Shown piece after piece: positions 2,164-47,460 of a DNA stretch of 64,000 nucleotides. The translations under genes were made by a program, and so were the position numbers. The notes beneath the pieces were generated by a model, which was not told where the DNA came from, made no database searches, and saw nothing but the letters and a program-made list of their open reading frames with translations. Source of the stretch: Agelas oroides (lineage: Eukaryota > Porifera > Demospongiae > Agelasida > Agelasidae); contig OX422183.1 of assembly GCA_949130485.1 (NCBI GenBank), positions 30,122,316 to 30,186,315 on the forward strand. Direction: 5' to 3'. Numbering within the stretch: position 1 is the stretch's first letter; each line of letters begins with the position of its first letter.

Positions 2164-5100
2164 TTAAGAGCAATACTCTAACAGTGATTCACGCAGTTCA
2201 ATTCTGGCATGAGTTACTCTTGGCTGAGTGTTCTGGTTGGGGCTTTTCTGCTTGTAGAAGAGCTTTAGAGCTGACCTGACTTTGGATAGTGTAACTCTCA
2301 TTTTCCTTACTATGTTCACATAAATCCAATTACAACGATGTGAAGATCTAAACCTTTTTAGTGCACGAAATGTAGCAGTGGTAATAAACTGAGTGAAAGC
2401 AATGCTAATCGAACTATATGAATATCCTATTTGGCCTCGCTCTGTGACTGTTGTGTAAAGTGTGGCAGTTGATAAGATGCCAAGGTTGAGGAAGTAGGAA
2501 TATTCAATGACATTCAGAGACCATGTCTTGTAGACAGTGCCAACAACTACACTGTGCATGAAGAGAGAAAACACTGTTACAGTTATTGCCAGAAGGTTAA
2601 CATCAGCACTTCCAGGAGTGGTCAGTGAGAATATGAGGAAGAGTACAATGCGAACTAGCAGAAGTAGTCCAGTCCAGTAGCGGTGCCTGTCTTTATAGGG
2701 TCCAGTGTATGCATCAAAGAGTGGCTTCAGTTTCTTTACCCAAAACAGCACTCTGTGACTGGAAAATTTCTGGAGGAGCTGGATGAAAATAAGAATGACT
2801 GTGTAGGGGAGGGAGATGAGAAGTAGGAGCAGAGTAGCTATGAAGAGTGGAATGTGTTTGCCTTTCAAATAGTCAATATTTCCATCATAAAACCAGATCT
2901 TTCTCACAGAGTTATCAGGGTATTCAAGCTTAGTTGACTGGAATACAGTGATGATGATCCGAAGTAGCTTTGCATATGATAGAAGAAAGAGTGTTGCTAG
3001 GACCGGCACTGCATTTCTGCCACTCAACCTTGCTGCTAGTGTGAAGTAGTGGCTCAGTACTATGATTGTGATGACCAGGAACCAGATGTAGAGCGGGAAG
3101 ACAAACTGCAGCCATGTCTTGACATAGGCATCTAGCCCATTGTAGAAACAGGTCTCAATGCCGAGGTCTAGGTTGATCCAGGCTATGAACCAGCTGAGGA
3201 ATGGGTTGGTTGTGTTAGGAGGGAAGAAAGTAGAATGGTTGGCTCTCACTATGTTGGCATAGAAGATGAGACCATTAATTGTTCCCACAGATACAGTGAG
3301 GTTTAGCCCAATCAAAAGCACTACTAGAGCTATCCCGGCTAAGGCAATGACTGGAACCCAAAGCAAGGCCCACAGACTTGAGCATTTCCTACATGAAGAT
3401 GTTCCAAAAGCATGACTGAGGTTGTTCTTACATGCTCCACAGAGGATACCAGAGCGGTGGAATGCACATTGTTCATCTGGGTCCTCCAAGTCAAGATCAA
3501 AGCTGTCAGGCTTGCAGTAGTCAAATGGGCAGTGATCATGGACTATGACTCCATTAAAAAATGTTGCATTGATCCACATGGATGATGGTCTGTAGATCTT
3601 CTGGGTGTCAATACTGCAGTTTATTGCATGTTGTTGTAGTTGAGAGTGACAGGTGCATGAAGAGTTGTGCAATACAAACCCCAGTGGGCAAGGATGCAAA
3701 GCAATGCAGACAAAAAGTTCTGCGAATTGGAGGAGTACTGCTTTTGATACCTTTGTAGGCATAGTGGTTACTGGAATGCCAACTTTGTCAACATTCAGTA
3801 TCATCCTTTCATTTTGATGCCTGGAGAAAATGTTATATGTTAGATCTGTACATTTCCCTTCAACCTTTTGTGTTTCCTGCAATGGTTTCATTTGTGGTGG
3901 TCTACTAGAGCTGACTGAAGTAAACCTAGCATGCACTGTAAATGGTACTGTTCCAAACCTCTGTCCAACTGCAACTGCCGGTATTTGAAATGTCTCACCA
4001 GGGTAAGCTGTGACATTATACTGAGTAATGTTGCAGTCAGGAAGATTATTTGTGCATAAACAAACCCTTGTTGGATTGGAAGATACTGCTGACAGTTGCT
4101 GTAGAGTATCCTTCAAGTGAAATGTTGCATCAAACACAAAAGTAAATGGTTTATACTGGCACAAATCCACCCATCCACCGTAGATGCTGCTTCCAGCATT
4201 ATCAGCAGTATTGTTGAGAAACACCAGACTTGGAGGTGAGGTAAGTACTAGTCTTCCATGAGAGATGGTGTTTCCTGTCTGAAAGAAGCATGTAATAAAT
4301 GGGCTTACATAGATTATTTTTTGTGCAATGTTAGTCACATATAGGGCCCCACCATTATGCTGAGCATGATTTCTTGTGAGGATCATTTGGCTATGTGAAC
4401 CAAGTATGATTGTGGCACCATTTTGCAGTGCTAGTGCTCCACCATTATAACCTTCATTTTCTATAAACGTTATGTTTGCATACCTTTGGACAACTATAGT
4501 GGAAGCATCAGCTAATATAGCCCCACCATTCCGCTGAGCCTTGTTTCTCAGAAAAGTGACTTTACTTTGTTCCCAAAACACCAAATGAGATTTTCGGTAC
4601 AATGCTGTCACACCACATGCTCTCCCTTCATTTTCCACTAGTTCAAAGTTTTGTTGAATTATTATTGTAGAGTTGACTGCAAAGATTGTACCTCCCCATT
4701 CCTGAATCACCTTATTGCCAGCAAACTTTGTGTTCCCATGAAAATATATGATGGTTTTGACAGTGAGTAGTATATACTTTCCAATGTTGTGTGTGAAAAA
4801 ATTGCTCCCATAAAGTGTGATGTTGCTATTGGATGCTACTACTCCCCTTAAATGATTGTAAATAAACCTCATATCTTGTAGCTCAATGGATAGCATTCTC
4901 TTGATGTATAGTGCGCCAAGTCGAGTACAGTTTTGTATAGTAATGTTCTGCAGTTTTATTTTAGCATCACAGTAGTATTTTTGGTTTGACTCCACCCATA
5001 GTCTTGTTCCAACAAAATGACTTTCGGAGATGTGCACCATGTAGTCTTCTTCTGATTGGCAGGTAGAGGTATGTAAAGAGCTGTTGCCATAGTGTAGCAA

Positions 5101-6108
5101 TATTCTTAATACGTCATACGATCCTGCTGTGTTAAGAGTTGCAATCTGCTTTGCTTGAATCACTGAACAATGACACATCCAATTTTCAATTGTAATATAC
5201 AAGTGACTGTGCCTCCCATTTTGTATGTCCGTGTTTGCATTAGTTACATTGTTTATGTAAATGCGAACTTTGTAGGTAGTCTGTGCTAGTTTAATGTTGA
5301 GTCCTGTAGCATACTGAAGTCTGAAATGCTCTTGCATTTGTGTGCTTTCAAAAGTAATTTGTAAATCCACAAGATTGAAAACTGTAGGTAAAATGATTTG
5401 TAAAGTTGTGGGAATGTCCAGAAAGATTAGCAAGTAGTTTGGCTTGTTTCTACTAAATATAGTTTGGGAGATAGTTGAAAGTCCAAGCATGTTGATTCCC
5501 AGTAACCCGGCTCCTGTTGAACTGTTTATAACTACCTCAGAGATGGTTACATTAATGGTTTGCAGAAAGTACAAAGTTACTTTAGACACCTGTGTGGTAG
5601 ATAATTTGTCATGAGGATAAACAAACCTCTCCTTGACTGTAAAATTTGAGGGAAATTCCGCCCCACAGAAAGAGAACATCAGTTTTGCAATCTTTAATGC
5701 TGTGACATTTACAAATGCAAATCCTAATGATCCTGTACATTGAATCACACTCTTTAAGTCACTATTGGTAGGACCGTATCCAACCATGGAGATATTCCTC
5801 ACGTCCTTGATCAGCACTGAAGGTTTCCTGTTTGTCTTTGTTTGATGGTACCCGGGCAGAAATGTGATGACTGTGTTGGATGTAAAGAACAGTGGTGGAT
5901 CTTGTACCACATCAGTCAGAGTGTAGCAGGGATCCCTGGGACATCCTGTGTTACTGCTGGGTATGATGTAGAACTGCTTTGCTGTGACTGTCCAGGATAG
6001 CAGAAAGAAGGAGGACAACACTAGCAGCCACATTTCAGACTCAGCTTCTTCTGGATTGCTTGCTTTCTTTGACAATCTGATAAAAAGTACTATAGTATAG
6101 CTTTCCAA
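2164..6108 (-). CDS. Large receptor-like protein: beta-helix ectodomain plus multi-pass membrane domain (paralogue 1)
   Basis: Intronless frame of 1,314 codons. The likely start is the internal Met at residue 26 (codon at 6031-6033), because a hydrophobic signal peptide (MWLLVLSSFFLLSWTVTA) begins there and the paralogue at 8491-12384 starts at the matching point. A Cys-containing N-terminal block (PSSNTGCPRDPCYTL) is followed by a long N-glycosylation-rich ectodomain. Around residues 400-640 it has repeats with NGGA motifs (about 525, 555 and 586), as in right-handed parallel beta-helix / pectin-lyase-like and Pmp-type repeats. A Cys-rich juxtamembrane block follows (DYCKPDS, GILCGACKNNLSHAFGTSSC). 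From about residue 908 to 1240 there are roughly nine hydrophobic helices, then a short basic cytoplasmic tail ending LRESLLEYCS. The topology suggests a surface receptor or sensor, but ligand and function are unknown. The gene sits head-to-tail 2.4 kb from its paralogue, so it is a tandem duplicate. Confidence 0.85.
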   Translation of the reverse strand: MESYTIVLFIRLSKKASNPEEAESEMWLLVLSSFFLLSWTVTAKQFYIIPSSNTGCPRDPCYTLTDVVQDPPLFFTSNTVITFLPGYHQTKTNRKPSVLIKDVRNISMVGYGPTNSDLKSVIQCTGSLGFAFVNVTALKIAKLMFSFCGAEFPSNFTVKERFVYPHDKLSTTQVSKVTLYFLQTINVTISEVVINSSTGAGLLGINMLGLSTISQTIFSRNKPNYLLIFLDIPTTLQIILPTVFNLVDLQITFESTQMQEHFRLQYATGLNIKLAQTTYKVRIYINNVTNANTDIQNGRHSHLYITIENWMCHCSVIQAKQIATLNTAGSYDVLRILLHYGNSSLHTSTCQSEEDYMVHISESHFVGTRLWVESNQKYYCDAKIKLQNITIQNCTRLGALYIKRMLSIELQDMRFIYNHLRGVVASNSNITLYGSNFFTHNIGKYILLTVKTIIYFHGNTKFAGNKVIQEWGGTIFAVNSTIIIQQNFELVENEGRACGVTALYRKSHLVFWEQSKVTFLRNKAQRNGGAILADASTIVVQRYANITFIENEGYNGGALALQNGATIILGSHSQMILTRNHAQHNGGALYVTNIAQKIIYVSPFITCFFQTGNTISHGRLVLTSPPSLVFLNNTADNAGSSIYGGWVDLCQYKPFTFVFDATFHLKDTLQQLSAVSSNPTRVCLCTNNLPDCNITQYNVTAYPGETFQIPAVAVGQRFGTVPFTVHARFTSVSSSRPPQMKPLQETQKVEGKCTDLTYNIFSRHQNERMILNVDKVGIPVTTMPTKVSKAVLLQFAELFVCIALHPCPLGFVLHNSSCTCHSQLQQHAINCSIDTQKIYRPSSMWINATFFNGVIVHDHCPFDYCKPDSFDLDLEDPDEQCAFHRSGILCGACKNNLSHAFGTSSCRKCSSLWALLWVPVIALAGIALVVLLIGLNLTVSVGTINGLIFYANIVRANHSTFFPPNTTNPFLSWFIAWINLDLGIETCFYNGLDAYVKTWLQFVFPLYIWFLVITIIVLSHYFTLAARLSGRNAVPVLATLFLLSYAKLLRIIITVFQSTKLEYPDNSVRKIWFYDGNIDYLKGKHIPLFIATLLLLLISLPYTVILIFIQLLQKFSSHRVLFWVKKLKPLFDAYTGPYKDRHRYWTGLLLLVRIVLFLIFSLTTPGSADVNLLAITVTVFSLFMHSVVVGTVYKTWSLNVIEYSYFLNLGILSTATLYTTVTERGQIGYSYSSISIAFTQFITTATFRALKRFRSSHRCNWIYVNIVRKMRVTLSKVRSALKLFYKQKSPNQNTQPRVTHARIELRESLLEYCS

Positions 6109-7904: not shown

Positions 7905-8486
7905 ATAACTGTGTGCAGTAAGCCATGCTCGCATTGTCAATGGAAATGTGATACTCAACATAGTTACAGGTATTTCCTTCGTCTGACAATTTTTTTTCTC
8001 ATGCTATTCTTTACCTACATAAAATGGTTGATACTTTGTATGAAAGTTTTTAGTAATCTATTAGCAAATTGGAATGTATGTATGCTAATCATGTATCATC
8101 GCACTTGTTCCCAGGCTCTCATGCCCCCAGCTTTTGCCACTTGCTGTTATGAAAATCGGTGGATGTGAGAGCATGGGAATGTGGCTAGTTCTCATGTGCC
8201 AAACAGGTCATCTGTGTCATCCAGCAGGCAGTTGTATCAGAACTTTTGAAGGGCTGATAATTGAAGCTCTTATTGTTCTGTCTTCTGAAAAATTAGGTAT
8301 CATGCACTGTCAGCAGAAGAAAAGTTCAAACAGAACTATCAATTTTATACACAGTTTTTACACTGTTTTGCTCACTTGTGCAGTTGGTAGTTTACACTCT
8401 AAGTACACAAATAATAAAATTGTAAGGTGTCAATATGACAGAAATGCAAAAATAGCAAAGTAATATGTGTTAGTTCACAACTAGTA
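7905..8486. other. Spacer with a short MITE relic
   Basis: No gene is seen. At about 8108-8186 a short inverted pair (TTCCCAGGCTCTCATGC near 8108 and GTGAGAGCATGGGAATG near 8165) looks like a worn relic of the TAGYCTCGTTCCCAG family. Confidence 0.35.
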
Positions 8487-8492
8487 TTTATT
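8487..8492 (-). promoter_or_regulatory. Candidate poly(A) signal overlapping the stop codon
   Basis: On the minus strand the stop codon TAA at 8491-8493 runs directly into AATAAA (plus-strand TTTATT). If used, the 3' UTR of the gene at 8491-12384 would be only some 15-30 bases. Confidence 0.35.
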
Positions 8493-11400
8493 AAGAGCAG
8501 TATTCCAGCAGTGATTCGCGTAGTTCAACTGAGGCATGGCTTATTCCTGGCTGATCATTGTGTTGAGAGCTTCCTTGCTTGCAGCAGAACTTCCTTAGAG
8601 ACAAACTGAGTTTGGATAATTTAACTCTCAGTTCTGAAACAATTTTTATGGAAATCCAGTTGCAATTCTGTGAGGACGTAAACTTTGTGATAATATGAAC
8701 TGCAACAATGATGATGAAAAGAGCAAAAGCAATGCTACTTGAAGTACATGCAACTGGTACTTGACCATGCCCAGTGATTTTGGTGTATGATGTGGCAAAC
8801 GCAAAAATCCCCAGGTTGAAAAAGAAGGAGTATTCGATGACATTCAAAGACCATTTCCTGTAAAAACCACCAGCAAGTACCATGTACACAAGCAAAATAA
8901 GCACTGCTATAATAATTGCCAGCAGGTTAATGTTAGAATTTCCTCGAGTGTTCAGTGAGAATATAAGGAAGAGTACAATGCGAACTAGCAGAAGTAGTCC
9001 AGTCCAGTAACGGTGCCTATCTTTGTAGGGTCCAGTGTAGGCATCAAAGAGTGGCTTCAGTTTCTGCACCCAAAAGAGAACTCTATAGCTGGAAAATTGC
9101 TGGAGAAGCTGGATAAATATGAGGATGGCTGTGTACGGGAGGGTGAAAAAAAGTAGGAGAAGAGCAGCTATGAAGAGCGGAATGTGTATCCCTGTTAAGT
9201 AGTCAACATTTCCATCATAAAACCAGACATTTCTAACAGAATTATCAGGGTACTCAAGCTCGGTTGACTGAAATATAGTGATAATGATTCGAAGTAGCTT
9301 TGCATAGGATAAGAGTAAGAGTGTTGCCAGGACCTGCACTGCATTTCTGCCACTCAGCCTTGTTGCACGTTTGGAGTAGTGGCTCAATACTATGATTGCA
9401 ATAACTAAAAACCATATATATAGAGGGAAAACAAACTGCAGCCATGTCTTGACATAGGCATCTAGCCCATTGTAGAAACAGGTCTCAATGCCAAGGTCTA
9501 GGTTGATCCAGGCTATGAACCAGCTGAGGAATGAGTTGGTTGTGTTGGGAGGGAAGAAAGTAGCATGGTTCGCTCTCACTATGTTAGCATAGAAGATGAG
9601 TCCATTGATAGTTCCTACAGATACAGTGAGGTTTAGCACAATCAAAAGCACCACTAAAGCCATCCCAGCTAAGGCAATGACTGGAACCCAAAGCAAGGCC
9701 CACAGACTTGAGCACTCCCTACATGTGGATGTTCCGAAGACATGACTAAGGTTGTACTGACATGCTCCACAGAGGATGCCAGTGCGATCGAATTCACACT
9801 GTTCATCTGGGTCCTCCAAGTTAAGATCAATACTCTTTGGCTTGCAGTAGTCAAATGGGCAGTGATCATGTACTAGGATTCCCTCCTGTGAACCATTTAT
9901 TACTGTTGCATTGATCCATGTTGTTGATTTTCTGTAGATCTTCTGGGTATCAATGCTGCAGTTTATTCCATGTCGTTGTATTTGTGGTAGACAAGTGCAT
10001 GAAGAATTGTGCAACACAAAGCCCAGTCGGCAAGGGTTTAATTGGACATTTATTTGCAGGTCTTTGAGTAGTAGGAGAATTTCATTGCTGTCTGGCTTTT
10101 GATTGATATATTCAGGAGATAGCTTATAAAGTTTGCTTACCGTTAGCACCATCATTTCATTTTGATTAGAAGACGCAATGGTGTATGTCAGGTTTTTACA
10201 AGCTCCTTTAATGTGCTGAGTTCTTTGAGATGGTTCTATTTCTGGAGAGCTATCAGGGTTAACTGAAATAAACCAGGCATGTACTAGAGCTGGTACTGTC
10301 CCAAACCTCTGTCCAACTGCAACTGCAGGTAATTGAAATGTCTCACCAGGGTAAGCTGTGACATTGTACTGAGTAATGTTGCAGTCAGGATAACCATTGG
10401 TGCATAGACAAACCCTTGTGGGGTTAGAAGATACTGCTGACAATTGTGATGAAAGTTTTTGGAAGTGAAACAATGCATCGAAAACCTCAACACCTGGTTT
10501 ACCAGTGCAATTGCAAAAATCAACCCATCCACCATAGAGAATATCACCGGCTGAGCGAGCAGTATTGTTTGTAAACATCAAACTAGTGTTTGTAGGCAAA
10601 CTTTGGGACGGTACTTCAAAGAAGCATCTAATCATATAACGATGCAAGTGAAATGTAATTTTAGGTGAGGGTTCTTCTACATACAAGGCACCTCCATAAT
10701 GCTGAGCATGATTTCTCATGAAAACAATTTGACTTTGTGAATTTACTGTAATTCTGGCATCACTTCGAAATGATAGTGCTCCACCATCATAGGCTTTATT
10801 ATCTGTGAACGTAATTGTTGCTTCACTTTCAACAAACAATTTTGAACCTTCAGCTAATATAGCACCACCATTCTGCTCAGCATAGTTTCCAATGAAGCTG
10901 ACATTACTTTGGTTCCCAAAAATTAACTGAGAACGATCGTACAGTGCTATAGCACCACCTACTTTTCCTTCATTTTCCACTAGCTCTGCTGTTTGTTGGA
11001 ACTTTATCATGGAGTTTTGTGAAACGATTATCATTGCCCATTCCACCTTATTTCCAATGAATATAGCATATTCATTAAATGACATGGTACTTTTGTATAA
11101 GTAGAGTATTCCTGTGTAGCCAGTGTTGTTCATAAAGAAACATCTTCCAGAAACTGTAACATTGCTGCTGTGTATTAAAATTCCATTTTGACTGTTATTG
11201 GCAAATTTCACATCTTGTAATTCGATGTATTTCATTCCTGAAATTTGCAATGCATATATAGAGCTGTTTTGCACAGTAATGTTACGCAAAATTATTCCAC
11301 TATCACAATCTTTCGTCTTTGCATCCATAAGTATCCCTACTCCCACAAAGTAGCTGTCTGACATCTGAACCATGTCTGCTGGTTTTGAGCAGTTGAATGT

Positions 11401-12384
11401 ATGTAAGATGTGACCACTAGCATTAAACTTTAGCTGTATTTCTGCGGTATCCTCCTTCTTTGCTATGTTAGTACATGTGATTTGTCTGGCTTGAATCACT
11501 GAACAGTGATGCTCCCAGTTCTCAATAATAAATTGAAAGTTGCCATTCCAGTTCCCCGCCTTCCTATTACTGAATGTTGTGATATTGTTTATGGAAATGT
11601 GTACATTGTATGTAACTTGCGCCAGCATAATACTAAGTCCAGTGGCACCCCAGGGTGTTCTCTTTAAACCGTATGGTATTTCTCCAAATTCCACATGTGA
11701 ATCCTCAATGGTTAGTGCAGTAGGTGGAATTTTTTCCAAGGTGGAGGGAATGTCTAGGAAGATTAGCATGCAGTTTGGTTTGTTATCACTAAATATAGTC
11801 TGAGAAATAGTTGAGAGTCCGAGCATGTTGATTCCCAGTAATCCAGTTTCTGTGGAATTACTTATGACCACCTCCGAGATGGTTACATTAATGGTTTGCA
11901 GAAAGAATAAAGTCACTCGCGAAATTTTGGTGGATGGTACTTTTTCAAAGTCATGTGGATATATAAAGTTCTTTTCAACTGTAAGGTTCGAGGTAAAACG
12001 TGCCCCACAGAAAGAGAAATGCAGTTTTGCAATCTTTAGCATGGTTACCTTTATGAACATGAATCCAAATGATCCTCCACAGTCAATCACCAAGTCATCA
12101 TTGGTATGATTGTATCCAACCATGGAGATGTTACTCACATTCTCTATCAGTACTTTGTGGTACAACTCCCTATGATAGTTGGTTTGGTGGTGCCCTGGTA
12201 GAAATATTATGACAGCATTGGATACAAAGAATTTCGACGAATGTTTCACCACGTCAGGCAGAGTGTAGCAAGGATCCCTGGGACAACTTGTGTTACTGCT
12301 GGGTACGACATAGAACTGCTCTGCTGTGATGGTCCATGATAACAGAATGAGAAAAGACAACACTAGCAGCCACATGGATTGCAT
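8491..12384 (-). CDS. Large receptor-like protein: beta-helix ectodomain plus multi-pass membrane domain (paralogue 2)
   Basis: Intronless, 1,297 aa, paralogous over its full length to the protein at 2164-6108. Order of parts: signal peptide (MWLLVLSFLILLSWTITA, just after the first Met), conserved Cys block (SSNTSCPRDPCYTLPDVV), glycosylated ectodomain with beta-helix-type repeats (NGGAILAEGS about 503, DGGALSF about 533, YGGALYV about 564), a block beginning VCLCTNGYPDCNITQYNV, a Cys-rich juxtamembrane segment (ILCGACQYNLSHVFGTSTC), about nine membrane helices from residue 890, and a C-terminal LRESLLEYCS shared with paralogue 1. The first membrane segments and the loop FYNGLDAYVKTWLQFVFPLY are nearly identical between the two, whereas residues of roughly 230-440 differ strongly. 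It is probably a surface receptor of unknown ligand. Confidence 0.85.
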   Translation of the reverse strand: MQSMWLLVLSFLILLSWTITAEQFYVVPSSNTSCPRDPCYTLPDVVKHSSKFFVSNAVIIFLPGHHQTNYHRELYHKVLIENVSNISMVGYNHTNDDLVIDCGGSFGFMFIKVTMLKIAKLHFSFCGARFTSNLTVEKNFIYPHDFEKVPSTKISRVTLFFLQTINVTISEVVISNSTETGLLGINMLGLSTISQTIFSDNKPNCMLIFLDIPSTLEKIPPTALTIEDSHVEFGEIPYGLKRTPWGATGLSIMLAQVTYNVHISINNITTFSNRKAGNWNGNFQFIIENWEHHCSVIQARQITCTNIAKKEDTAEIQLKFNASGHILHTFNCSKPADMVQMSDSYFVGVGILMDAKTKDCDSGIILRNITVQNSSIYALQISGMKYIELQDVKFANNSQNGILIHSSNVTVSGRCFFMNNTGYTGILYLYKSTMSFNEYAIFIGNKVEWAMIIVSQNSMIKFQQTAELVENEGKVGGAIALYDRSQLIFGNQSNVSFIGNYAEQNGGAILAEGSKLFVESEATITFTDNKAYDGGALSFRSDARITVNSQSQIVFMRNHAQHYGGALYVEEPSPKITFHLHRYMIRCFFEVPSQSLPTNTSLMFTNNTARSAGDILYGGWVDFCNCTGKPGVEVFDALFHFQKLSSQLSAVSSNPTRVCLCTNGYPDCNITQYNVTAYPGETFQLPAVAVGQRFGTVPALVHAWFISVNPDSSPEIEPSQRTQHIKGACKNLTYTIASSNQNEMMVLTVSKLYKLSPEYINQKPDSNEILLLLKDLQINVQLNPCRLGFVLHNSSCTCLPQIQRHGINCSIDTQKIYRKSTTWINATVINGSQEGILVHDHCPFDYCKPKSIDLNLEDPDEQCEFDRTGILCGACQYNLSHVFGTSTCRECSSLWALLWVPVIALAGMALVVLLIVLNLTVSVGTINGLIFYANIVRANHATFFPPNTTNSFLSWFIAWINLDLGIETCFYNGLDAYVKTWLQFVFPLYIWFLVIAIIVLSHYSKRATRLSGRNAVQVLATLLLLSYAKLLRIIITIFQSTELEYPDNSVRNVWFYDGNVDYLTGIHIPLFIAALLLLFFTLPYTAILIFIQLLQQFSSYRVLFWVQKLKPLFDAYTGPYKDRHRYWTGLLLLVRIVLFLIFSLNTRGNSNINLLAIIIAVLILLVYMVLAGGFYRKWSLNVIEYSFFFNLGIFAFATSYTKITGHGQVPVACTSSSIAFALFIIIVAVHIITKFTSSQNCNWISIKIVSELRVKLSKLSLSLRKFCCKQGSSQHNDQPGISHASVELRESLLEYCS

Positions 12385-13537
12385 TTTCAGACTTAGCTTC
12401 TTTTGGATCCAGTAGTCAATGATATCTGAACTCAGAACGATTAAGGCGGCCTTAAATTTATTATTCGTAACACGGAACTACGCGAGGATATTGCTACAGG
12501 AGTTTACGGAAATTGAATGGCTGCCGAGTGCAAGCTCTTTGCTTTGTCATAGTTAGTCTTTTCTGTATAGCTTTGTTTTAGCGCTGATTGTGAAGTAGGA
12601 ATGTCCGAACTTCAGAAGGGATATCACTGAGACCGAGAGCTGCGTGTTTCTGCGAGCAGAAGACAGAAGTAAAGCTCAAGTCATTTCGTACGACGATGAC
12701 CAATCGTCTTTGGCGGTTTATGCGGAACACTCGCCAGCCTTGGGACCAAGATCTGATGGCTTTTCTGTGTACAGGAGGAGTTGAAGTTGTCATAACCAAG
12801 TGGCATTTGTGCTGTTAATGCTGTGCTGTGAAAGCCTTAGTGTTTAAATGGTAAGGGCTACCCGAATATGCCCCAATTTTCGCCTCTTTCCAATTATATT
12901 GCAGCCGTAAAAAGGATTGCTGTTTCATGCCACTGTGTTTCTGTTAGACCATGACCAGTAGTAATAGTGGCTACAGTGGCTTAGCTCTCAGGCTACGTCT
13001 TCAGTTCCACATTTAGCTGTATTTATTGCTACAAACGGTTTGTTTATACGAGCGCGGCTGCTGTTAATTAGTTGCCATGACAACAAATTGTTTTCATTTA
13101 CGGAATCGGGGAGCATCATCGTTCTCATTGTTGCAAACCCCATGTTCATACTGCCATGGGTTCATGAGATATTTACAGTTAAATTTACTACGTAAAAAGT
13201 TGATGGGTGTATGATTTGCATAGTTAAGGCTGCCTTAACTGTTCTGAGAAGACATTCACTTAATGCGATATTTAATTTAGACGTATAGTTACTTCATTTA
13301 GAGTTGTGTTTTCCCACACTCCCAAACCCTGTGTTGACAAGACAAACTGAAAAACTGAAGTACAGGTTTTTATACACAGCTTTTGTTTGAAATAAAAACC
13401 ACATGAATGTTTCTACAACTGATCTAGTTGTTTTGACTGTGCAGTGGTTGTAATACACACCCTTATATGTACATCTGGTGCATGAACAATCAACGAACCA
13501 CATCTCCCTTATAAAACAGGCCTAGATGTTATGCAAA
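12385..13537. other. Upstream flank of paralogue 2; no gene seen
   Basis: The minus-strand promoter of the paralogue 2 gene should lie here. Homology between the two paralogues extends about 30 bases upstream of the start Met (a shared AAGAAGCTNAGTCTGAAA block), then ends. No long frame or domain is visible. Confidence 0.4.
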
Positions 13538-13600
13538 GTCACCCACTGCGCAGGACGCGTTTCGGCCAATACCAGGCCTCATCAGCTGCGCTGGGGTGAC
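13538..13600 (-). ncRNA. Type I hammerhead ribozyme of a Penelope-like element
   Basis: Read on the minus strand, the three-way junction is complete. Stem I 5' strand is GTCACCC-ca-GCGCAG, followed by the conserved CTGATGA (13585-13579). Stem II is GGCC-TGGTATT-GGCC, followed by the conserved GAAA (13563-13560). A very short stem III (ACGCGT, a self-complementary hexamer) leads to the cleavage triplet GTC. Stem I 3' strand is CTGCGC-agt-GGGTGAC. Both arms of stem I (6 + 7 bp) pair perfectly around a small internal loop. Cleavage is predicted between 13554 and 13553. Further out, CATCTCCC and GGGAGATG can also pair. Short stem III with long stem I is known from hammerheads carried by Penelope-like retroelements. 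Confidence 0.92.
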
Positions 13601-13924
13601 CGGGAGATGGGGACTGCTATCTCATGCACAGAATGCAGTCAGGTGGCTGGCCTTATTCAAAAGTCGGTAGAGACTCCTCGAAAGCACCGTCTCTTCGTGC
13701 AGCTGTTCTTCGTGCAGCTGTCTTTCGTTCGAAGGTCTTACGTAGCGATTGATCGTCACGTGTTATCGACGGGTGCGTGCGCGCGCGCGCATACAGAGGC
13801 ACTGGAGGTACCGGAAGTATTGTTAATAAGGCACAAGGCAAACAGTGTAAGGCAAACAGTGCGTGTTTAAAGGCTGTGTGTGCATAAATGTGCCAAGCCA
13901 AATAAACTGCATGTTCAGGCTGCG

Positions 13925-15052
13925 TTAAACAGTAGCTATGGCAATGCATTCAGTAATAATGTTTTTCAGGCACCTCCTGTACTTCTGTAAAGTCCTGGGG
14001 TAGCGATGCACAAAGGTCTTGTAGGTGCTACAGAGTTTTTGGTATACGTATCCCTGTCTAAGTAATCTGGTTGTGAGTAGTTTAGATCTGTAAACAAAAT
14101 CTTGGTAATTACAACATATCCTCAAATATCGAACTAACTGTGAAATTACTACTCCGTATGCTGGTTTTGAGGGTATGTTGCTATCCATGTGTGGAAAATT
14201 GACTATTGAAAAGTTGAAGGCATCCCTCTTATCATACAAGTCTGTGCAAAACTTACCATTCAGGACATTAATGTTAAGATCCAGGTAGGAACAGCTGTCA
14301 TGGCTCTCTGTAGTTTTCTTAAGCTCTAATTCTGGGGGGTAAATTTGGCCTATGCATGCTTGAAAATCAGGGTTGTTAAGTGTAAGCAAGTCATCAATAT
14401 ATCTGCAAGTATTACTAAATTTAGCTGCTACAGAGAGGTCAGTCCGGATTAGGGATTTCATAAACTCAAATTCATAGGAGAAAAGAAATAGATCCGCAAC
14501 TAATGGAGCACAATCAGTACCCATAGGGATGCCAATTGTTTGTTGGTAGACAGCTGATCCTATCTGGATGTATATGTTATCTATCAAGAAATTGAACATC
14601 TCAACTAACTGGTTCACCGTTAAGTTACGGGTATTAGCTACAGGTCTGGAAGTCCAGTAAGCATAATCTTTTCCTAAGGCCATGTGGGAGGCATCTCTAG
14701 TATTGTATGCATTTCTAATTAACTCTTCCATGCGTGTTTTGAGCTGACTATGGGGGATGTTAGTATAGAGTGTACTGAAATCAAAGCTATCCAATGCTCT
14801 TGCATGTCTCAACTTTTCTAGGGTGTTAGTCACTTCAGTGGAGTTGTTAATGACCCAAAAGCAGTTTACCCCGGTTCTTCTTTCTATACCATTGCAATAT
14901 TCCTTGTAATGTTTAAGTATCAGCTGGAGACAGTGGGTAAGCAGCTTAGATAAAGGTTTGGTTGTGCAGGAGGCAGAAGCTGCTATAAAGCGATGTCCAT
15001 AGGGATTTTTGTGTAGTTTAGGCATCCAGTAAAAACCAGGCAATCTCTTCAT
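13925..15052 (-). CDS. Penelope-like reverse transcriptase ORF (partial)
   Basis: The frame of 375 codons codes for the RT core of a Penelope-like element. Visible motifs in order are PGFYWMPKLHKNPYGHRFIA at the start (the LPKLHK-type finger motif), ALDSFDFSTLYTNIPHSQL (motif A region), GIPMGTDCAPLVADLFLF (motif B), RYIDDLLTL (motif C with the YxDD catalytic aspartates) and SYLDLNI (motif D/E region). The catalytic residues look intact. The Met at 15052 is not the natural start: only 22 bases upstream there is an in-frame stop, while another frame just upstream (to about 15166) reads STYVHC, IVQKHL and related residues expected before the finger motif. A single-base-type frameshift around 15060-15080 is therefore likely. 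It ends without an endonuclease domain. Confidence 0.85.
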   Translation of the reverse strand: MKRLPGFYWMPKLHKNPYGHRFIAASASCTTKPLSKLLTHCLQLILKHYKEYCNGIERRTGVNCFWVINNSTEVTNTLEKLRHARALDSFDFSTLYTNIPHSQLKTRMEELIRNAYNTRDASHMALGKDYAYWTSRPVANTRNLTVNQLVEMFNFLIDNIYIQIGSAVYQQTIGIPMGTDCAPLVADLFLFSYEFEFMKSLIRTDLSVAAKFSNTCRYIDDLLTLNNPDFQACIGQIYPPELELKKTTESHDSCSYLDLNINVLNGKFCTDLYDKRDAFNFSIVNFPHMDSNIPSKPAYGVVISQLVRYLRICCNYQDFVYRSKLLTTRLLRQGYVYQKLCSTYKTFVHRYPRTLQKYRRCLKNIITECIAIATV

Positions 15053-15240
15053 GTCTTCTGCTACTCCTTCGTGCTATGCATGTATGCTAAATGTTTTTGT
15101 ACAATCTGGTCTACAGAATCCCTACAGTGGACATATGTAGATGCTTTCCCACTCTTTCGCATGCATGCAGAATGCAAGCAACTGTATTAGTGTTCTTATG
15201 ATATAAAATAGTGACCATTGCGGCGACTTAATTTGACTGG

Positions 15241-31025: not shown

Positions 31026-31260
31026 CTGTAGTCTTGCTGGCATCGTAAGACTTGGCCGCGCCGCAGTTCAACAGTTATCACTTATCACTTAGGATAATTA
31101 GCTACCAGTTCAAGGCGACGTGAACTTGCATAGCTATACAATCTCTAGAGGTGCGGTCGGATCAACTTGCTTAGAATTAACTACCGTACTCCTATAATCC
31201 AATCCGCCCCTATTTTCATCTGAATAGACATGGGTTCACTGTACTGATGAGAATTTGGTC

Positions 31261-32286
31261 ATGAATCAGCGACTCGGGATAATTCTGCGAGTGATATTGG
31301 TTTGTCTCTCTGTCTCTGCCGTAGTGTACTGTTACTGTATGAACACAGATGGAGCCAGTCCGAAGCTACCATTAGTAAGTGTCAAGACTGCTGCATGGTC
31401 TGGAAACAAGAAGATACTGTATTTACTACAAACGGAGAGCTGCCTCCCCCTGTATTTGAGGTTAGTTGATGTAATGGGAAACACGTCTATTTGCATGTGT
31501 GATGTTTTGGTTTTAAGCTACAAACAACCTTGCAATGATACTTTGTCACTACCTCATGTGGAGTATATCTTCAATTCATCTACCGCTTGGACAACAGGAA
31601 GGAATCTGCTTCTTGAGGTTGCCATGTTGAGAATAGAAACATACCTATACTATATTTTCCTGGATGATGACATTGTGCTCTTTGGAATACAAGAGACAAC
31701 TCTTAACCCTTGGAGGAAGCTTGAAGATTCACTGAGAAAAATGGAGCCAGCAGTGGCAGCAATATTAGTTGTTGTGGATGGCAAACAAAAGTGTATTGAT
31801 CAACTCAACAGGTTTTATCGAGCAAGACAAAAGAAAGAGTGCAGTTTCAATAGAACAGACTTTCTTCAAATAGTAAATTGGGATGCAGCTTTCAGTGCAT
31901 TCCATTATCAGTCAGTGAAACATATTCTACCCTACTCAAGCAGGTATGATGAACTCAACTGGTGGTACAGTCAAGTATATGTTAGCATCAAATGTGAAAA
32001 CATTTTTCGAGGTCAAGTGTTACTGCATACTGATATATGTGCAGTGAATCTAAGTCATCGTCCATACCCACGAGGACAAGGACGTCTGAATAGATCTATC
32101 ACGAATGCTATTGTGAATGAGATTAAAGAAGAAATTCCTAATAAATATCGTACTAAACTGTCAAGATTGATTCTAGGGTGGAAGACAGACGGATACTATA
32201 GTCATGCATCAACATCATCAACTTTATGCCTACCACTTCCAACACCGCACAAGTCCATAAAACCGTACGCACATCTTGTGGATTAA
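31261..32286 (+). CDS. Putative secretory-pathway glycosyltransferase-like protein
   Basis: This single-exon frame of 341 aa starts at the ATG at 31261. A hydrophobic N-terminus (LGIILRVILVCLSVSAVVYC) suggests a signal anchor, i.e. a type II membrane protein of the ER/Golgi. The central motif YYIFLDDDIVLF looks like the DxD metal/sugar-nucleotide motif of GT-A enzymes. It is preceded by TAWTTGRNLLLEVAM and followed by NPWRKLEDSLRKMEPAVAA, an arrangement I associate with uncharacterised GT-like families. Several N-glycosylation sequons are present. No donor or acceptor can be assigned. A decayed second copy lies at 44475-45965. An AATAAA lies about 400 bases after the stop. The promoter-proximal region carries a 2 kb insertion ending 235 bases before the start. 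Confidence 0.65.
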   Translation: MNQRLGIILRVILVCLSVSAVVYCYCMNTDGASPKLPLVSVKTAAWSGNKKILYLLQTESCLPLYLRLVDVMGNTSICMCDVLVLSYKQPCNDTLSLPHVEYIFNSSTAWTTGRNLLLEVAMLRIETYLYYIFLDDDIVLFGIQETTLNPWRKLEDSLRKMEPAVAAILVVVDGKQKCIDQLNRFYRARQKKECSFNRTDFLQIVNWDAAFSAFHYQSVKHILPYSSRYDELNWWYSQVYVSIKCENIFRGQVLLHTDICAVNLSHRPYPRGQGRLNRSITNAIVNEIKEEIPNKYRTKLSRLILGWKTDGYYSHASTSSTLCLPLPTPHKSIKPYAHLVD

Positions 32287-33552: not shown

Positions 33553-34018
33553 TAGCCTCGTTCCCAGGCCTCCCCCGTTTTCGTTCTTCGGTTTGCGTTC
33601 AATATAATACACGGAGGCGGAAGAGCGCGAAAAACGGGGAAGGCCTGGGAACACTTATCACGTGAATGACGTCAGGTGGACGCGAGGTGGACGTAGGGGG
33701 GGAGGGGTCCGCATTCAAATACATGAAATAACGTACTAGACTTCATCATCGAGCGCTCTATCGCCAGGCAAGACCCCAGACGTTCACAAGATCGCGAGTA
33801 CTCCGCTTGACCAGTAAGAAACTCGCTCTCAGGTTTATTGCGCCCGTACTTGTAGTCGGGCACCGCCCCCCCTACGTCCACCTCGCGTCCACCTGACGTC
33901 ATTCACGTGATAAGTGTTCCCAGGCCTTCCCCGTTTTTCGCGCTCTTCCGCCTCCGTGTATTATATTGAACGCAGCAAACCGAAGAACGAAAACGGGGGA
34001 GGCCTGGGAACGAGGCTA
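33553..34018. mobile_element. Mutator-like foldback MITE, 466 bp, 9-bp target duplication
   Basis: The ends are TAGCCTCGTTCCCAGGCC and GGCCTGGGAACGAGGCTA. ACTATAGCC is repeated exactly at 33544-33552 and 34019-34027. The arms are about 165 bases each and almost perfectly complementary, including GTTTGCGTTCAATATAATAC, GGAAGAGCGCGAAAAACGGG and GTGGACGCGAGGTGGACGTA. The arm-internal module is shared with the palindrome at 22266. Confidence 0.92.
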
Positions 34019-34499: not shown

Positions 34500-35312
34500 T
34501 GGGTAATATGGCCCCCTAGACATAATTAGTAGCCAACACCCCCCCCCTGGACAGCTAATCAAATGGGTTGTAATGCCCCCCTGACACACTTAACTGCATG
34601 TCCACCCCCCTGGACAGCTAATCAAATGAGTTGTAATGCCCCCCTGACACAATTAACTGCATGTCCACCCCCCTGGACAGCTAATCAAATGAGTTGTAAT
34701 GCCCCCCTGACACACTTAACTGCATGTCCACCCCCCTGGACAGCTAATCAAATGGGTTGTAATGCCCCCCTGACACAATTAACTACATGTCCACCCCCCT
34801 GGACAGCTAATCAAATGAGTTGTAATGCCCCCTGACACAATTAACTACATGTCCACCCCCCTGGACAGCTAATCAAATGGTTTGTAATGCCCCCCTGACA
34901 TAATTAACTGTATGACCCCCCCCCCCCCCCCCCCCCCCCCCCCTTGGACAGCTAATCAAATGAGTTGTAATGCCCCCCTGACACAATTAACTGCATGTCC
35001 ACCCCCCCTGGACAGCTAATCAAATGAGTTGTAATGCCCCCCTGACACAATTAACTGCATGTCCACCCCCTGGACAGCGAGTTGTAATGCCCCCTGACAC
35101 TATTAACTGCATGACCACCCCCCTGGACAGCCAATCAGATGGGATGTAATGTCCCCCTGACACAATTAACTGTATGTCCACCACCCCCCCCCCCCCCCCC
35201 CCCACCCAGACAGCTAATCTAATGGGATGTTGTGCCCCCTGACATAATTAACTGTATGACCACCCCCCTGGACAGCCAATCAGATGGGATCTAATGTCCC
35301 CCTGACACAATC
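34500..35312. repeat. 63-bp tandem array
   Basis: About 12 copies of a 63-base unit containing CCTGGACAGCTAATCAAATG, TTGTAATGCCCCCCTGACAC and AATTAACTGCATGTCCACC. The period is exact in the first copies (34561, 34624, 34687). Because 63 is a multiple of three, a 90-codon frame runs through it, which is an artefact. Confidence 0.92.
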
Positions 35313-35825
35313 AAATGCACAAACAATGCACTGTGTATCCCTGAAATATTTAGTGTCACTAGTTGACTGGTGACTCAAGACTACCTAGGCCGAACATATA
35401 CAGAAGCCTTAGCATCAACTAGGCCACAGAATAATGACACTTTTTTACAGTTTACAAACTTTGTATATAATATTGAATTTGTGTTCAGTAACTGCCCAAG
35501 TTCAAGGAGGACAAATAGGTGAAGTACGCAATGCTGCTAGTTTAAAAAATGCTTTTATATCCACACTTTTAATTTGTAAGTTTAACTTCAATATTAGCTT
35601 CTTTGTCATCTTGTTTGTTTATGACTTTGTAACTGGGGTGCTTTTCATTAGCTATGCTATCTTGTATCCTTTAACTTTCATAGAGAAAAAGAAAGGTTGG
35701 TTATAGCTAGTAAACTACGTATAAATCCCATGCATGGCTACCAAGCTGTAAGTGCACTGTGTATCCTACTAACCCTTGTATCCTTGGTAATAAACCAGTG
35801 CATTGCTAAGATCTTCCCAGCTTTA
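35313..35825. other. Unique-looking sequence inside the 6.6 kb segment
   Basis: A frame of 90 codons (35434-35706) begins with a hydrophobic stretch and includes a second hydrophobic stretch. I see no domain and no supporting splice or poly(A) signal. Confidence 0.25.
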
Positions 35826-38734: not shown

Positions 38735-38996
38735 CCCCCACCTGGACAGCCAATCAAATGGGACTTAGAGCCCCCCTGATACAATTAAGGGCATACCTAC
38801 CCCCTTGGATAGCCAATCAAATGGGATATAGTACCCCCTGACATAATTAACAGCTTTTCCAACCCCCTGGACAGCAAATCAAGTGGGATGTAGTACCCCC
38901 TGACAAAATTAACAGAATTAAGCCATCATGTATAACCAAGTAGCTATTTTCTACTTTTTATAGAAATAGAAACTAGCTACTTGGTTGTATATGATT
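38735..38996. repeat. C-rich tandem units and a hairpin
   Basis: Three units related to the 63-bp array (CCTGGACAGCCAATCAAATG, CCCCTGACATAATTAA) are followed by a hairpin at 38932-38996 (ACCAAGTAGCTA and TAGCTACTTGGT arms). Confidence 0.75.
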
Positions 38997-39117: not shown

Positions 39118-40492
39118 TGGAGTTGTATTACAACAGTTCACAATTCTGGCAACACACCCCCTGGTTGTATTACAACAGTTCACAATTCTGGCAACACACC
39201 CCCTGGTTGTATTACAACAGTCACAATTCTGGCAACACACCCCCTGGTTGTATTACAACAGTTCACAATTCTGGCAACACACCCCCTGGTTGTATTACAA
39301 CAGTCACAATTCTGGCAACACACCCCCTGGTTGTATTACAACAGTTCACAATTCTGGCAACACACCCCCTGGTTGTATTACAACAGTTCACAATTCTGGC
39401 AACACACCCCCTGGTTGTATTACAACAGTTCACAATTCTGGCAACACACCCCCTGGTTGTATTACAACAGTTCACAATTCTGGCAACACACCCCCTGGTT
39501 GTATTACAACAGTTCACAATTCTGGCAACACACCCCCTGGTTGTATTACAACAGTCACAATTCTGGCAACACACCCCCTGGTTGTATTACAACAGTTCAC
39601 AATTCTGGCAACACACCCCCTGGTTGTATTACAACAGTTCACAATTCTGGCAACACACCCCCCGGTTGTATTACAACAGTTCACAATTCTGGCAACACAC
39701 CCCCCGGTTGTATTACAACAGTTCACAATTCTGGCAACACACCCCCCGGTTGTATTACAACAGTTCACAATTCTGGCAACACACCCCCCGGTTGTATTAC
39801 AACAGTTCACAATTCTGGCAACACACCCCCCGGTTGTATTACAACAGTTCACAATTCTGGCAACACACCCCCCGGTTGTATTACAACAGTTCACAATTCT
39901 GGCAACACACCCCCCGGTTGTATTACAACAGTTCACAATTCTGGCAACACACCCCCGGTTGTATTACAACAGTTCACAATTCTGGCAACACACCCCCCGG
40001 TTGTATTACAACAGTTCACAATTCTGGCAACACACCCCCGGTTGTATTACAACAGTTCACAATTCTGGCAACACACCCCGGTTGTATTACAACAGTTCAC
40101 AATTCTGGCAACACACCCCGGTTGTATTACAACAGTTCACAATTCTGGCAACACACCCCCCGGTTGTATTACAACAGTTCACAATTCTGGCAACACACCC
40201 CCCGGTTGTATTACAACAGTCACAATTCTGGCAACACACCCCCCGGTTGTATTACAACAGTTCACAATTCTGGCAACACACCCCCCGGTTGTATTACAAC
40301 AGTCACAATTCTGGCAACACACCCCCCGGTTGTATTACAACAGTTCACAATTCTGGCAACACACCCCCCGGTTGTATTACAACAGTCACAATTCTGGCAA
40401 CACACCCCCCGGTTGTATTACAACAGTTCACAATTCTGGCAACACACCCCCCGGTTGTATTACAACAGTCACAATTCTGGCAATACACTCCC
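39118..40492. repeat. 42-bp minisatellite, about 33 copies
   Basis: The unit is GTTGTATTACAACAGTTCAC plus AATTCTGGCAACACACCCCC plus TG or CG. The left third ends in CCCCCTG and the right two thirds in CCCCCCG. Occasional units lack one T (CAGTCAC for CAGTTCAC) or one or two Cs. GTTGTATTACAAC is itself palindromic. All three forward frames stay open for over 460 codons only because the period is a multiple of three and no frame of the unit has a stop. It is not a gene. Confidence 0.97.
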
Positions 40493-40500
40493 TGATGAAC

Positions 40501-40600
40501 TAGTTCCCAGGCCTCCCCCGTTTTTTGTTCTTCAGTTTGCGTTCAATATATTATACTGAACGCAAACCGAAAAACAAAAAACGGGGGAGGCCCTGAACCA
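40501..40600. mobile_element. Degenerate TAGTTCCCAGG hairpin MITE
   Basis: A hairpin of TTCCCAGGCCTCCCCCGTTT and GTTTGCGTTCAATATA with its inverse (AACGGGGGAGGCC) sits at the junction between the 42-bp minisatellite and the next array. It is a member of the TAGCCTCG family with worn ends. Confidence 0.75.
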
Positions 40601-44474: not shown

Positions 44475-45965
44475 ATGAATCAGCGACTCGGGATAATTCT
44501 GCGAGTAATATTAGTTTGTCTCTCTGTTGCTGCCGTACACTGTAAAAACATTTGGGTTACTTCAACCATATTATGGTCATCTCAGTTGCATGCCTGTTGT
44601 GTACGTGACACGCTACAAACTTCAAGGGATGCTTCCAATTTGATTGAAAGCTTAAGTGTAGTTGAGATGCTTCTCCTTTTTGTTAACTTTGGATCGTCTT
44701 GCAGAAAGCCTAGCTATTTGACTACATTCCTGGATAACCATGCAACCAAGGAACTCCTCCAGGGGCGGATGTGTAGGATCTAAGAAGCACCCAACCTTAC
44801 CAGAAATGCTGATTTATAGGCTTTCTGCAAGATGATCCTAATTTAACAAAAGGGAGAAGCTTCTCAACTACCCTTTGATTCAAATTGTAAGCATCCCTTG
44901 ATGAGGTTCATAGCTAATGTTTCACTTACACAACAGGCATGCAACTGAGATGACCAAAATATGGTTGAAGTAACCCAAATGTTTTTACAGTGTAGTATAC
45001 TGCTACTGTATGAACACAGATGGAGCCAGTCTGAAGTTACCGATAGTAAGTGTCAAGAATGCTGCATGGTCTGGAGACAAAAAGATACTATATTTACTAC
45101 AAACAGAGAGCTGCCTCCCCCTGCATTTGAGGCTAGTTGATGTAATGGGAAACACATCTATTTTGCATGTGTGATGTGTTGGTTGTGAGCTACAAACAAC
45201 CTTGCAATGATACCTTATCACTACCTCATGTGGATTATATCTTCAATTCATCTACCGCTTGGACAACAGGAAGGAATCTGCTTCTTGAGGTTGCCATGTT
45301 GAGAAGAGAAACATACCTATATTATATTTTCTTGGACGATGACATTGTGCTCTTTGGAATACAAGAGACAAACCCTTAACCCTTGGAGGAAGCTTGAAGA
45401 TTCGCTTAGAAAAATGGAGCCAGCAGTGGCAGCAATATTAGTTGTTGTGGATGGCAAACAAAAGTGTATTAATCAACTCAACTGGTTTTATCGAGCAAGA
45501 CAAAAGCAAGAGTGCAGTTTCAGTAGAACAACGGACTTTCTTCAAATAGTAAATTGGGATGCAGCTTTCAGTGCATTTCACTATCAGTCAGTGAAGCATA
45601 TTCTACCATACTCAAGCAGGTATGATGAACTCAGCTGGCACTACAGTCAAGTATATGTTAACATCAAATGTGAAAACATGTTTCGAGGTCAAATGTTACT
45701 GCATACTCGTATATGTGCAGTGAATCCAAGTCATCGTTCATACCCACGAGAACAAGGACGTCTGAATAGATCTATCATAAATGCTATTGTGAATGAGATT
45801 GAAGAAGAAATTCCCAAAGAATATCGCACTAAACTGTCAAGTTTGATGCTGGGGTGGAAGACAAATGGATACCGTGGCCATGCATTAACATCGTCAACTT
45901 TGTGCCTACCACCTCCAACACCACACAAACCCATAAAGCCATATGCACATCTGTCAAGTCCATAA
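44475..45965 (+). pseudogene. Broken second copy of the glycosyltransferase-like gene
   Basis: High similarity to 31261-32286, from the start (MNQRLGIILRVILVCLSV) to the C-terminus (HKPIKPYAHL). The copy is interrupted after about 20 codons by a 455-bp MITE (44538-44992). It also carries an extra T near 45160-45164 and an extra base near 45370-45376, each shifting the frame, plus a codon-sized insertion near 45529. The DDDIVLF motif is still encoded but not in one frame with both ends. Upstream sequence back to about 44180 also matches the intact locus. Confidence 0.9.
44538..44992. mobile_element. 455-bp Tc1/mariner-type MITE inside the pseudogene, TA target
   Basis: It begins CACTGTAAAAACATTTGGG and ends CCCAAATGTTTTTACAGTG. 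The arms are some 170-200 bases long and complementary, including TTCAACCATATT, GGTCATCTCAGTTGCATGCC, AGCTTAAGTGTAGTTGAGA-like and TTGCAGAAAGCCTA segments. TA lies on both sides (44536-44537, 44993-44994), and the intact gene has a single TA at that place (GCCG-TA-GTG near 31320). Arms this complete suggest a foldback MITE with no coding capacity. Confidence 0.92.
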
Positions 45966-46151: not shown

Positions 46152-47460
46152 CTTCTCTGTGAGCCGGTATAGTGGCCTGGCCTTGTGAGCAAAATTCTTG
46201 ACAAACCGCCTATAGTAGGAGGCTAATCCTAGAAATTGCTGGAGCTCCTTGACATCTGTAGGAATTGGCCATTCCTAGGGGCTGGGCATCTTTCTTTGTC
46301 ACCAGGTTCACCTTACGGAAATCAACACAGAATCGAGTTGATCCATCCTTCTTCTTTACCAATACGACGGGTGACGACCAGGGGCCTTGAGCTGGTTCAA
46401 TGATGTTCCTGGACAGCATTTGTCCAACAAGGTGTTGCATTTCGCCTCTTTGGTTGAAAGGAAGTTTCCTGGCTCGTTGTCAGATTGGAGCAGCATCTCC
46501 AGTGTCAATCCGATGTTTTACAACATCTGTACACCCAAGGTCGTCATCTCCTAAAGATATCACTCCTCCAAATTCAAACAGGAGGGACTGGAGGTGCTCT
46601 ATGTCCACACTAGACAGGTCCTTGGCCCGGGATGTCATCAGCTTTACTGCTTTCTCCAAGGTGCCTGGGTCTTTTCTGTTTTCCATGCTGCCTCGAGCTC
46701 TGTCCAACTCTTTGAGGGCACAGACTCCCTCAGCTTCCGACAAGGGATGGAGGATTCCAACCTTTTGATTGGAGTAGACTGCCACTGGAGCTGAGGATGG
46801 ATTGAGTACCCGGATGATACTGCTTCCCTTTTCCATGGAGCAGACAGAGCGGGCAATGATGAGACCTTGCTGTTCCATGAAGCTGACAGCAGGTTCCAGA
46901 ACACCTGAACCCTTCTCCTGCTGAGAGTGAGAAACTGGAACATGCATCTGGCAGTGCCCTGGGATTACAGCATCTGCAGAAAAAGAAACATGGCACACGG
47001 ACATAAGTTCAGGAAATTGGTTGGGTTGGCACACAACCTGTTTTCCTCCAGCCACCAAAGTCCGTTCTCTCATATTGATTACACAGTCGTGTTGTTTCAG
47101 AAAATCTGCCCCCAGGAGGCATTCTTGAGTTAATTCCCTGGCAATGAAGACTGGGAACTGGACCTGTAAATCTCCCACTTGTAGCTGGAGCTCGTCCTGT
47201 CCTAGGAGGTCCAACTCTCCACCATTAGCAGCTACGATTGGTCGGACTGGAGGAGTCAGTAGATCCACAGGAAGCTCTGTAGCTTCCCTCCAGACATCTT
47301 CACGAACCAAGGAGACAGCTGAGCCAGTGTCAATGAGCATTCTTGTGCAGCGGTCTCCCAATTTCCCTACCACCACCAGAGCTGAATTTGGAGCATTGTT
47401 AGACAGAGAGGTTTGGGTCTTAAAAATTGCAGCCGACGGTCGACCCGCGCCGCCGGCTGA
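46152..47460 (-). pseudogene. Ty3/gypsy pol remnant: protease and deleted reverse transcriptase
   Basis: The protease shows LIDTGSAVSLV (active-site D-T-G) and later CLLGADFLKQHDCVIN, typical of gypsy retropepsins. A TGA at 46480-46482 replaces an expected Arg codon, consistent with CGA to TGA decay. After it the same frame continues MLSRNIIEPAQGPWSSPVVL and CVDFRKVNLVTKKDAQPL (RT fingers). Directly after this, near 46269, the sequence jumps out of frame to [18 protein letters not shown] and RPLYRLTEK (RT thumb/connection). The palm with the YxDD motif has been deleted. The element is inactive. Confidence 0.85.

Follow-up and report, generated by a model that had tools for sequence, protein, structure and literature searches.

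The window, i.e. the whole stretch of 64,000 nucleotides from the sponge Agelas oroides that was analysed here, carries on its minus strand a copy of a Penelope-like element (PLE) that is truncated at its 5' end and, located in the pseudo-LTR of this element, a type I hammerhead ribozyme motif (Table 1). The copy corresponds to residues 602-1012 of a 1012-codon frame, which are distributed over two reading frames (602-631 and 627-1012; tblastn with the element protein P0001), and is 99.06% identical to the tandem copy at locus L009 (blastn). It is flanked by TGCATGCATGC and CATGCA, and a comparison of junctions places CATGCA also at its 5' junction, near 15159-15169. The reverse transcriptase (RT) ORF matches the Pfam family RVT_1 (PF00078) with an E value of 2.7e-6 and 27.7 bits, just below the Pfam cut-off of 29.6.

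Table 1. Positions of the PLE copy and of the parts of its hammerhead in the window
Feature	Positions	Strand	Basis and remarks
5'-truncated PLE copy, ~1.7 kb	13482..15158	-	blastn, tblastn, flank junctions; pseudo-LTR at 3' end
C-terminal RT part of PLE frame, 375 aa ORF	13925..15052	-	ORF list, Pfam RVT_1
Element 3' end and target, ...GATTGTTCAT|GCA	13479..13484	-	junction comparison
Type I hammerhead ribozyme motif, 63 nt	13538..13600	-	sequence, descriptor scan, sub-threshold Rfam HH9 match
Predicted cleavage site	between 13554 and 13553	-	C17 = 13554
Core CTGATGA	13579..13585	-	sequence
Core GAAA	13560..13563	-	sequence
Palindromic stem III hexamer ACGCGT	13555..13560	-	sequence and folding; monomer 2 bp, dimer 6 bp
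Stem Ib, GTCACCC / GGGTGAC, 7 bp	13600-13594 / 13544-13538	-	sequence
Stem Ia, GCGCAG / CTGCGC, 6 bp	13591-13586 / 13553-13548	-	sequence
Internal loop CA / AGT between the two stem I helices		-	sequence
Stem II, GGCC / GGCC, loop 7 nt	13578-13575 / 13567-13564	-	sequence
Outer helix enclosing the hammerhead, 13609-13602 / 13508-13501	13501..13609	-	fold of 13640-13479, z -2.59

The PLE copy is located upstream of an ORF at 8491-12384 (minus strand), which together with its paralogue at 2164-6108 (minus strand) encodes proteins of 1297 and 1314 aa, respectively; both resemble secreted proteins of the beta-helix kind whose C-terminal part is transmembrane, and the ORF at 8491-12384, the one submitted to Pfam, matches Beta_helix and Chlam_PMP. 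Further paralogous ORFs, glycosyltransferase-like by eye and the second apparently partial, are found at 31255-32286 and 45339-45965 (plus strand), and an ORF at 46480-47376 (minus strand) with the motif LIDTGSAVS resembles, again by eye, an LTR-retrotransposon aspartic protease. Repeats comprise a 42-bp tandem array of 33 copies with 98% matches (39122-40492), which is followed by a long hairpin (40505-40597) with sub-threshold matches to microRNA families on both strands, as well as a 63-bp C-rich array (34542-35319) with a similar-unit array at 38741-38915. Two hairpin-forming copies ~356 nt apart (33558-33656 and 33914-34013), likewise with sub-threshold microRNA matches on both strands, are possibly MITE-like.

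The hammerhead motif of the window

The invariant core of the hammerhead (CUGANGA, GAAA and UH) is present in the window together with its three helices, stem III being 2 bp long in the monomer. Re-reading of the minus strand from 13600 to 13538 gave exactly the coordinates and the cleavage site of the earlier note, as well as all of its core positions, stems and the ACGCGT hexamer, and its description of a complete minimal type I hammerhead adjoining a PLE RT, with the RT ORF 5' of the motif on the same strand, is right. The Penelope-like RT ORF named there is indeed the RT of a PLE, but the ORF constitutes merely the 3' part of the 1012-codon frame.

A descriptor scan demanding the core, stem II, at least 2 bp of stem III and at least 4 bp of stem I recovered the hammerhead as the one matching place on both window strands; first-order Markov sequences, 100 of them at 128 kb each, contained none. 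Across the genome, the core pattern CTGATGAG-N-CGAAAC-N-GTC occurs 300 times versus 6 times for a backwards control, and the exact 32-nt core of the window was counted in 62 of the 100 places listed of these 300. The hammerhead is hence confirmed as a real motif that is complete and beyond chance. Hammerhead cores with another loop II lie at C2:1934630, C2:1988731 and C2:15855593 and perhaps represent other subfamilies.

The covariance-model check that the earlier note had proposed gave a match below threshold only. A search of 351 bases matched the Rfam model Hammerhead_HH9 (RF02275) with an E value of 0.0015, but all matches stay below the gathering threshold (23.2 versus 52 bits): the whole window yielded no Rfam match at gathering thresholds, and none of its 32 rows with E<=5 was a hammerhead. 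Locus L033 bears the same motif, yet was not recovered by Rfam in a 6-locus search at E<=1. The window motif resembles HH9 in core, stem order and type I topology, whereas its stem III is minimal and its score far under the threshold. Since the Rfam hammerhead models remain sub-threshold on this minimal form, the absence of hammerheads reported elsewhere could partly reflect search sensitivity.

In RNA folding, the best monomer fold pairs GAUG of the core with CGUC at a probability of ~0.6, and a monomer with its core kept open reaches -29.7 kcal/mol versus a minimum of -30.9, i.e. 1.2 above it. The corresponding dimer reaches -67.1 versus -67.6 kcal/mol, i.e. 0.5 above its minimum, so that the folding models are consistent with the suggestion that the palindromic stem III would serve a dimer.

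An element with permuted domain order

The hammerhead was found 3' of the RT in all 20 loci (L029-L048) that were chosen by protein alone and cut from the 48 protein matches listed, as well as in 5/5 older copies fetched (L049-L053), of which L051 has only its 3' half. This constant place, within a unit of 3558 nt, shows that the hammerhead belongs to the element. Nine of the 48 protein matches listed span the frame from residue 1 or 2 up to residue 1012, and four of these whole-frame copies (L029, L030, L031 and L037) follow a truncated unit in tandem and thus have two hammerheads, 3553-3558 nt apart. Tandem copies with two ribozymes, for which a genome search had been proposed, accordingly exist, with spacings of 3558, 3558 and 3553 nt (L009, L010 and L011) and a fourth case at L031. 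At L009, ~1.7 kb of 30-bp tandem repeats (8199-9901, contig C11), which read PVPPLSYGGP in one frame, lie 1 kb downstream of the tandem PLE copy.

With a 351-nt query, 3298 first-look candidates emerged across the 259 Mb of the genome, and 40 of them, window included, were scored. The element is apparently young, as judged from its sequences: the other 39 of these 40 are 98-100% identical across ~270-290 nt, and seven of the nine whole copies have a stop-free frame. The RT motif GIPMGT(D/N)CAP occurs at 64 genome places with near-identical matched sequences.

In the 1012-aa protein P0001, a GIY-YIG domain at residues 148-237 (24.7 bits, above the Pfam cut-off of 22.6) precedes RVT_1 at 652-862 (E 2.7e-5; 24.4 bits, under the cut-off of 29.6); hence the endonuclease (EN) is N-terminal and the frame ends after the RT. 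The order of motifs along the protein is EN at 150, a CxC motif (CKC) at 449, ADKASNN at 576 and YIDDL (YxDD) at 855. The element thus unites RT, with RVT_1 under Pfam's cut-off, and GIY-YIG endonuclease in one frame and displays pseudo-LTRs, 5' truncation and tandem copies, as is characteristic of PLEs. An endonuclease N-terminal to the RT and a CxC between the two, here CKC at 449, correspond to the definition of the Naiad type. The distance between RT motifs A and B amounts to 83 aa versus 59 and 60 aa in two other PLE frames of the genome that were measured (L054 and L055), which is expected if the RT of the element has a fingers insertion. AlphaFold2, run on the RT fragment of the window without an alignment, gave a pLDDT of 34. 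By its domain order, the element is a permuted PLE, and it is likely to belong to the Naiad clade.

Among the 95 GIY-YIG matches listed for the genome, L054, L055, L057 and L058 were picked for their long open frames of 661-800 aa, and in 4/4 the RT comes first and the endonuclease last; further permuted families may be present among the remaining matches. Compared with these four C-terminal-endonuclease frames, the element is 35-38% identical in the EN and 21-25% in the RT, while their RTs are 32-36% alike among themselves (L055 versus L058, 82%). A hammerhead was not found around the four frames within 5.0-5.5 kb each, a range that maybe leaves the pseudo-LTRs partly outside; the descriptor used accepts the motifs of L033, L050 and L053 but fails to detect the decayed one in L049. 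At L057 (C6:4942600-4948100), a C-terminal-endonuclease PLE is present twice, the copies being inverted head-to-head, with a 661-aa frame on each strand.

Outside the genome, no confirmed relative was found in viral contigs by protein or by RT-motif pattern, nor in prokaryote genome contigs by protein. The pattern search of 84,980 prokaryote genomes with the same RT motif gave one stretch on one contig, L056 (JACCHT010000015.1), from the assembly of a Bathymodiolus symbiont. This contig carries animal-type PLE RT pieces and is probably a contamination from the mussel host. The RT pieces are 46% and 56% identical to the element over 41 and 55 aa (E 5e-24), versus an E value of 2e-4 for the best of the four C-terminal-endonuclease frames, and this match, at the level of sequence, fits a spread of the permuted clade across animal phyla. 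No hammerhead was found in the 8 kb of L056, where the PLE is a decayed fragment. PHROGs returned 0 families, and a search of PDB sequences returned four ribosomal matches at chance level and nothing else.

Element ends, target sites and conservation

At all 31 loci compared, i.e. the window, 20 DNA matches and 10 protein matches, the 3' junction is formed by ...GTTCAT and lies ~72 nt beyond the cut site; duplicates of the same places and L031 (its 5' end being outside the stretch) were left out, and L020 and L021 are not independent, as their flanks are shared. Ranking by similarity to the stretch favours complete 3' ends among the DNA matches, whereas the 10 protein matches are free of such bias. 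Since genomic 3' ends extend past the cut site, the inserted templates would have been either circular or left uncut at the 3' ribozyme. The predicted cut does not coincide with any of the 5' ends read, that of L033 coming nearest, 19 nt downstream, and thus the 5' ends show no ribozyme processing; four whole copies continue past the cut site into the upstream unit. The target sites are biased, with TGCA at 18/31 of the 5' junctions versus 463/6200 background windows (7.5%), and GCA follows the 3' end in 12/31 loci.

Conservation was assessed on the four older copies that are covered in full, i.e. on all but L051. Mismatches amount to 62/764 (8.1%) in the 3'UTR before the pseudo-LTR, 29/876 (3.3%) in the pseudo-LTR, 10/252 (4.0%) in the hammerhead and 183/5141 (3.6%) in the ORF bins, and gap columns number 258 for the 3'UTR and 19 for the pseudo-LTR. 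By Fisher's test, the 3'UTR differs from the pseudo-LTR (p 3e-5) and from the hammerhead (p 0.02), while pseudo-LTR and ORF are alike (p 0.77); hence, the pseudo-LTR is about as constrained as the coding part. Within the pseudo-LTR the hammerhead is not singled out (4.0% versus 3.3%). Its 10 changes are all located in stems or in the stem III hexamer and none at the 13 core positions, which has a chance probability of ~0.1; these few changes look like CpG decay. Covariation inside the hammerhead is uninformative, as the copies are near-identical.

Proposed role of the hammerhead and relation to known systems

Minimal type I hammerheads have been well documented in PLEs, and the literature leaves the role of these motifs open (PMC6155905, PMC7761336, PMC7229834). 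In the Anolis PLE Poseidon, a similar motif needs protein to cut RNA and reverse transcription starts internally; ribozyme mutants insert normally in vitro and no RNA reads end at the cut site (PMC11167929).

We consider it probable that the hammerhead of the window is a self-cleaving ribozyme in the pseudo-LTR of an autonomous, recently active, permuted (Naiad-type) PLE. Tandem or read-through transcripts would allow two or more ribozyme copies to meet and to pair via ACGCGT as a 6-bp stem III, whereupon the dimerised hammerheads would cut the multimer into units. The resulting unit RNA would span 3558 nt from one cut site to the next, with its 5' end ~200 nt upstream of the first ATG in the frame. 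The element protein, in turn, would nick DNA at TGCA-like sites, and reverse transcription would start internally at ...GTTCAT|GCA, ~72 nt beyond the ribozyme cut site, as a consequence of which each complete 3' end would keep an uncut ribozyme. Given the likeness to Anolis and the open-core dimer just 0.5 kcal/mol above its minimum, we favour a cutting of multimeric transcripts that is conditional, i.e. dependent on dimerisation or on protein, and separate from insertion.

Two other accounts of an element-borne motif deserve consideration, each with a modest probability of about the same size. In one of them, which appears rather unlikely, the pseudo-LTR fold is a conserved structured RNA that offers the RT a platform for binding and initiation, and the hammerhead core is a relic without a working ribozyme. 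The conservation of the pseudo-LTR throughout, without special conservation of the hammerhead, the larger helix that encloses the motif, the templates uncut at the 3' site and a minimum-energy monomer fold that differs from the catalytic one all speak for such a relic; on the contrary, the 10 changes spare the 13 core positions, albeit at the chance probability given above, and a PLE motif of such kind does cleave when protein is present (PMC11167929). In the other, which is similarly doubtful, the template is, as in retrozymes, a circular RNA that arises when hammerheads cut at both ends and the product is ligated, and whose copying round the circle yields tandems and 3' ends past the cut. 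This would accommodate the joined units of 3558 nt, tandem copies that exceed one unit and the location of 3' ends 72 nt beyond the cut site, and type I hammerhead retrozymes are known to exist as circles, PLEs having been proposed as their movers (PMC7229834, PMC7761336). The same data, however, are explained by simple read-through transcription of a tandem locus, and mutated hammerheads do not block insertion in the Anolis system (PMC11167929).

The remaining explanations dispense with a permuted element that owns its hammerhead. The earlier note had implied a canonical PLE, with its endonuclease at the C-terminus and the hammerhead usual for such elements, and the minimal type I motif, short stem III, pseudo-LTRs and tandems are indeed as reported for PLEs (PMC6155905, PMC7761336). 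This candidate is contradicted by the N-terminal endonuclease, the end of the frame after the RT and an RT that is less similar to the four C-terminal-endonuclease frames than these are to each other, which makes it very improbable. Still less credible is the landing of an unrelated, non-autonomous retrozyme with its hammerhead beside an ordinary PLE fragment: retrozymes do bear type I hammerheads (PMC7229834), but the same place of the motif in every protein-chosen and older copy, inside the 3558-nt unit, contradicts this origin. A ribozyme that belongs to a permuted PLE is thus the preferred reading.

Hammerheads are established for canonical C-terminal-endonuclease PLEs. The statement of the earlier note that hammerheads in PLEs are established knowledge is therefore correct as such, but does not obviously cover the present element, which is permuted and not canonical. 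The permuted clade was described by Craig et al. in 2021 (Mol Biol Evol), whose abstract reportedly states that canonical hammerhead motifs are lacking; if this is right, the family of the element constitutes an exception. Among the titles and abstract openings listed from the open-licence literature, no report of a permuted PLE with a hammerhead was found. The chances are roughly even that this is the first permuted PLE shown to keep a complete tandem hammerhead, which would mean that a rule of 'no hammerhead' for the permuted clade is wrong and that the ribozyme either predates the split of PLE architectures or was swapped between lineages. Why PLEs carry hammerheads is an open question, given the normal insertion of the Anolis mutants in vitro (PMC11167929). 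A permuted PLE with a hammerhead uncouples the ribozyme from the C-terminal-endonuclease architecture and allows a natural comparison with permuted relatives without a hammerhead.

Naiads possess an N-terminal GIY-YIG endonuclease with a cysteine pair and histidines, a CxC motif, a C-terminal RT whose motifs A and B are spaced farther apart, as well as pseudo-LTRs and tandem copies, and they target microsatellites. The element shares the whole of this layout but targets TGCA-like sites and not microsatellites, and it carries a complete hammerhead, whereas the lack of a canonical one reportedly belongs to the description of the Naiad type and not to its definition. Compared with Poseidon of Anolis carolinensis, a canonical PLE, the pseudo-LTR hammerhead, tandem units, an RT start beyond the ribozyme and biased targets are alike; in Anolis, by contrast, the RT precedes the endonuclease, the reverse of the order found here, and there is an overlap between ribozyme and frame start, while the cut site of the element lies ~200 nt before its first ATG (PMC11167929). 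With metazoan retrozymes (PMC7229834), the element has in common type I hammerheads in tandem units; retrozymes, on the other hand, are small and non-autonomous, whereas the unit of the element measures 3.56 kb and encodes both RT and endonuclease.
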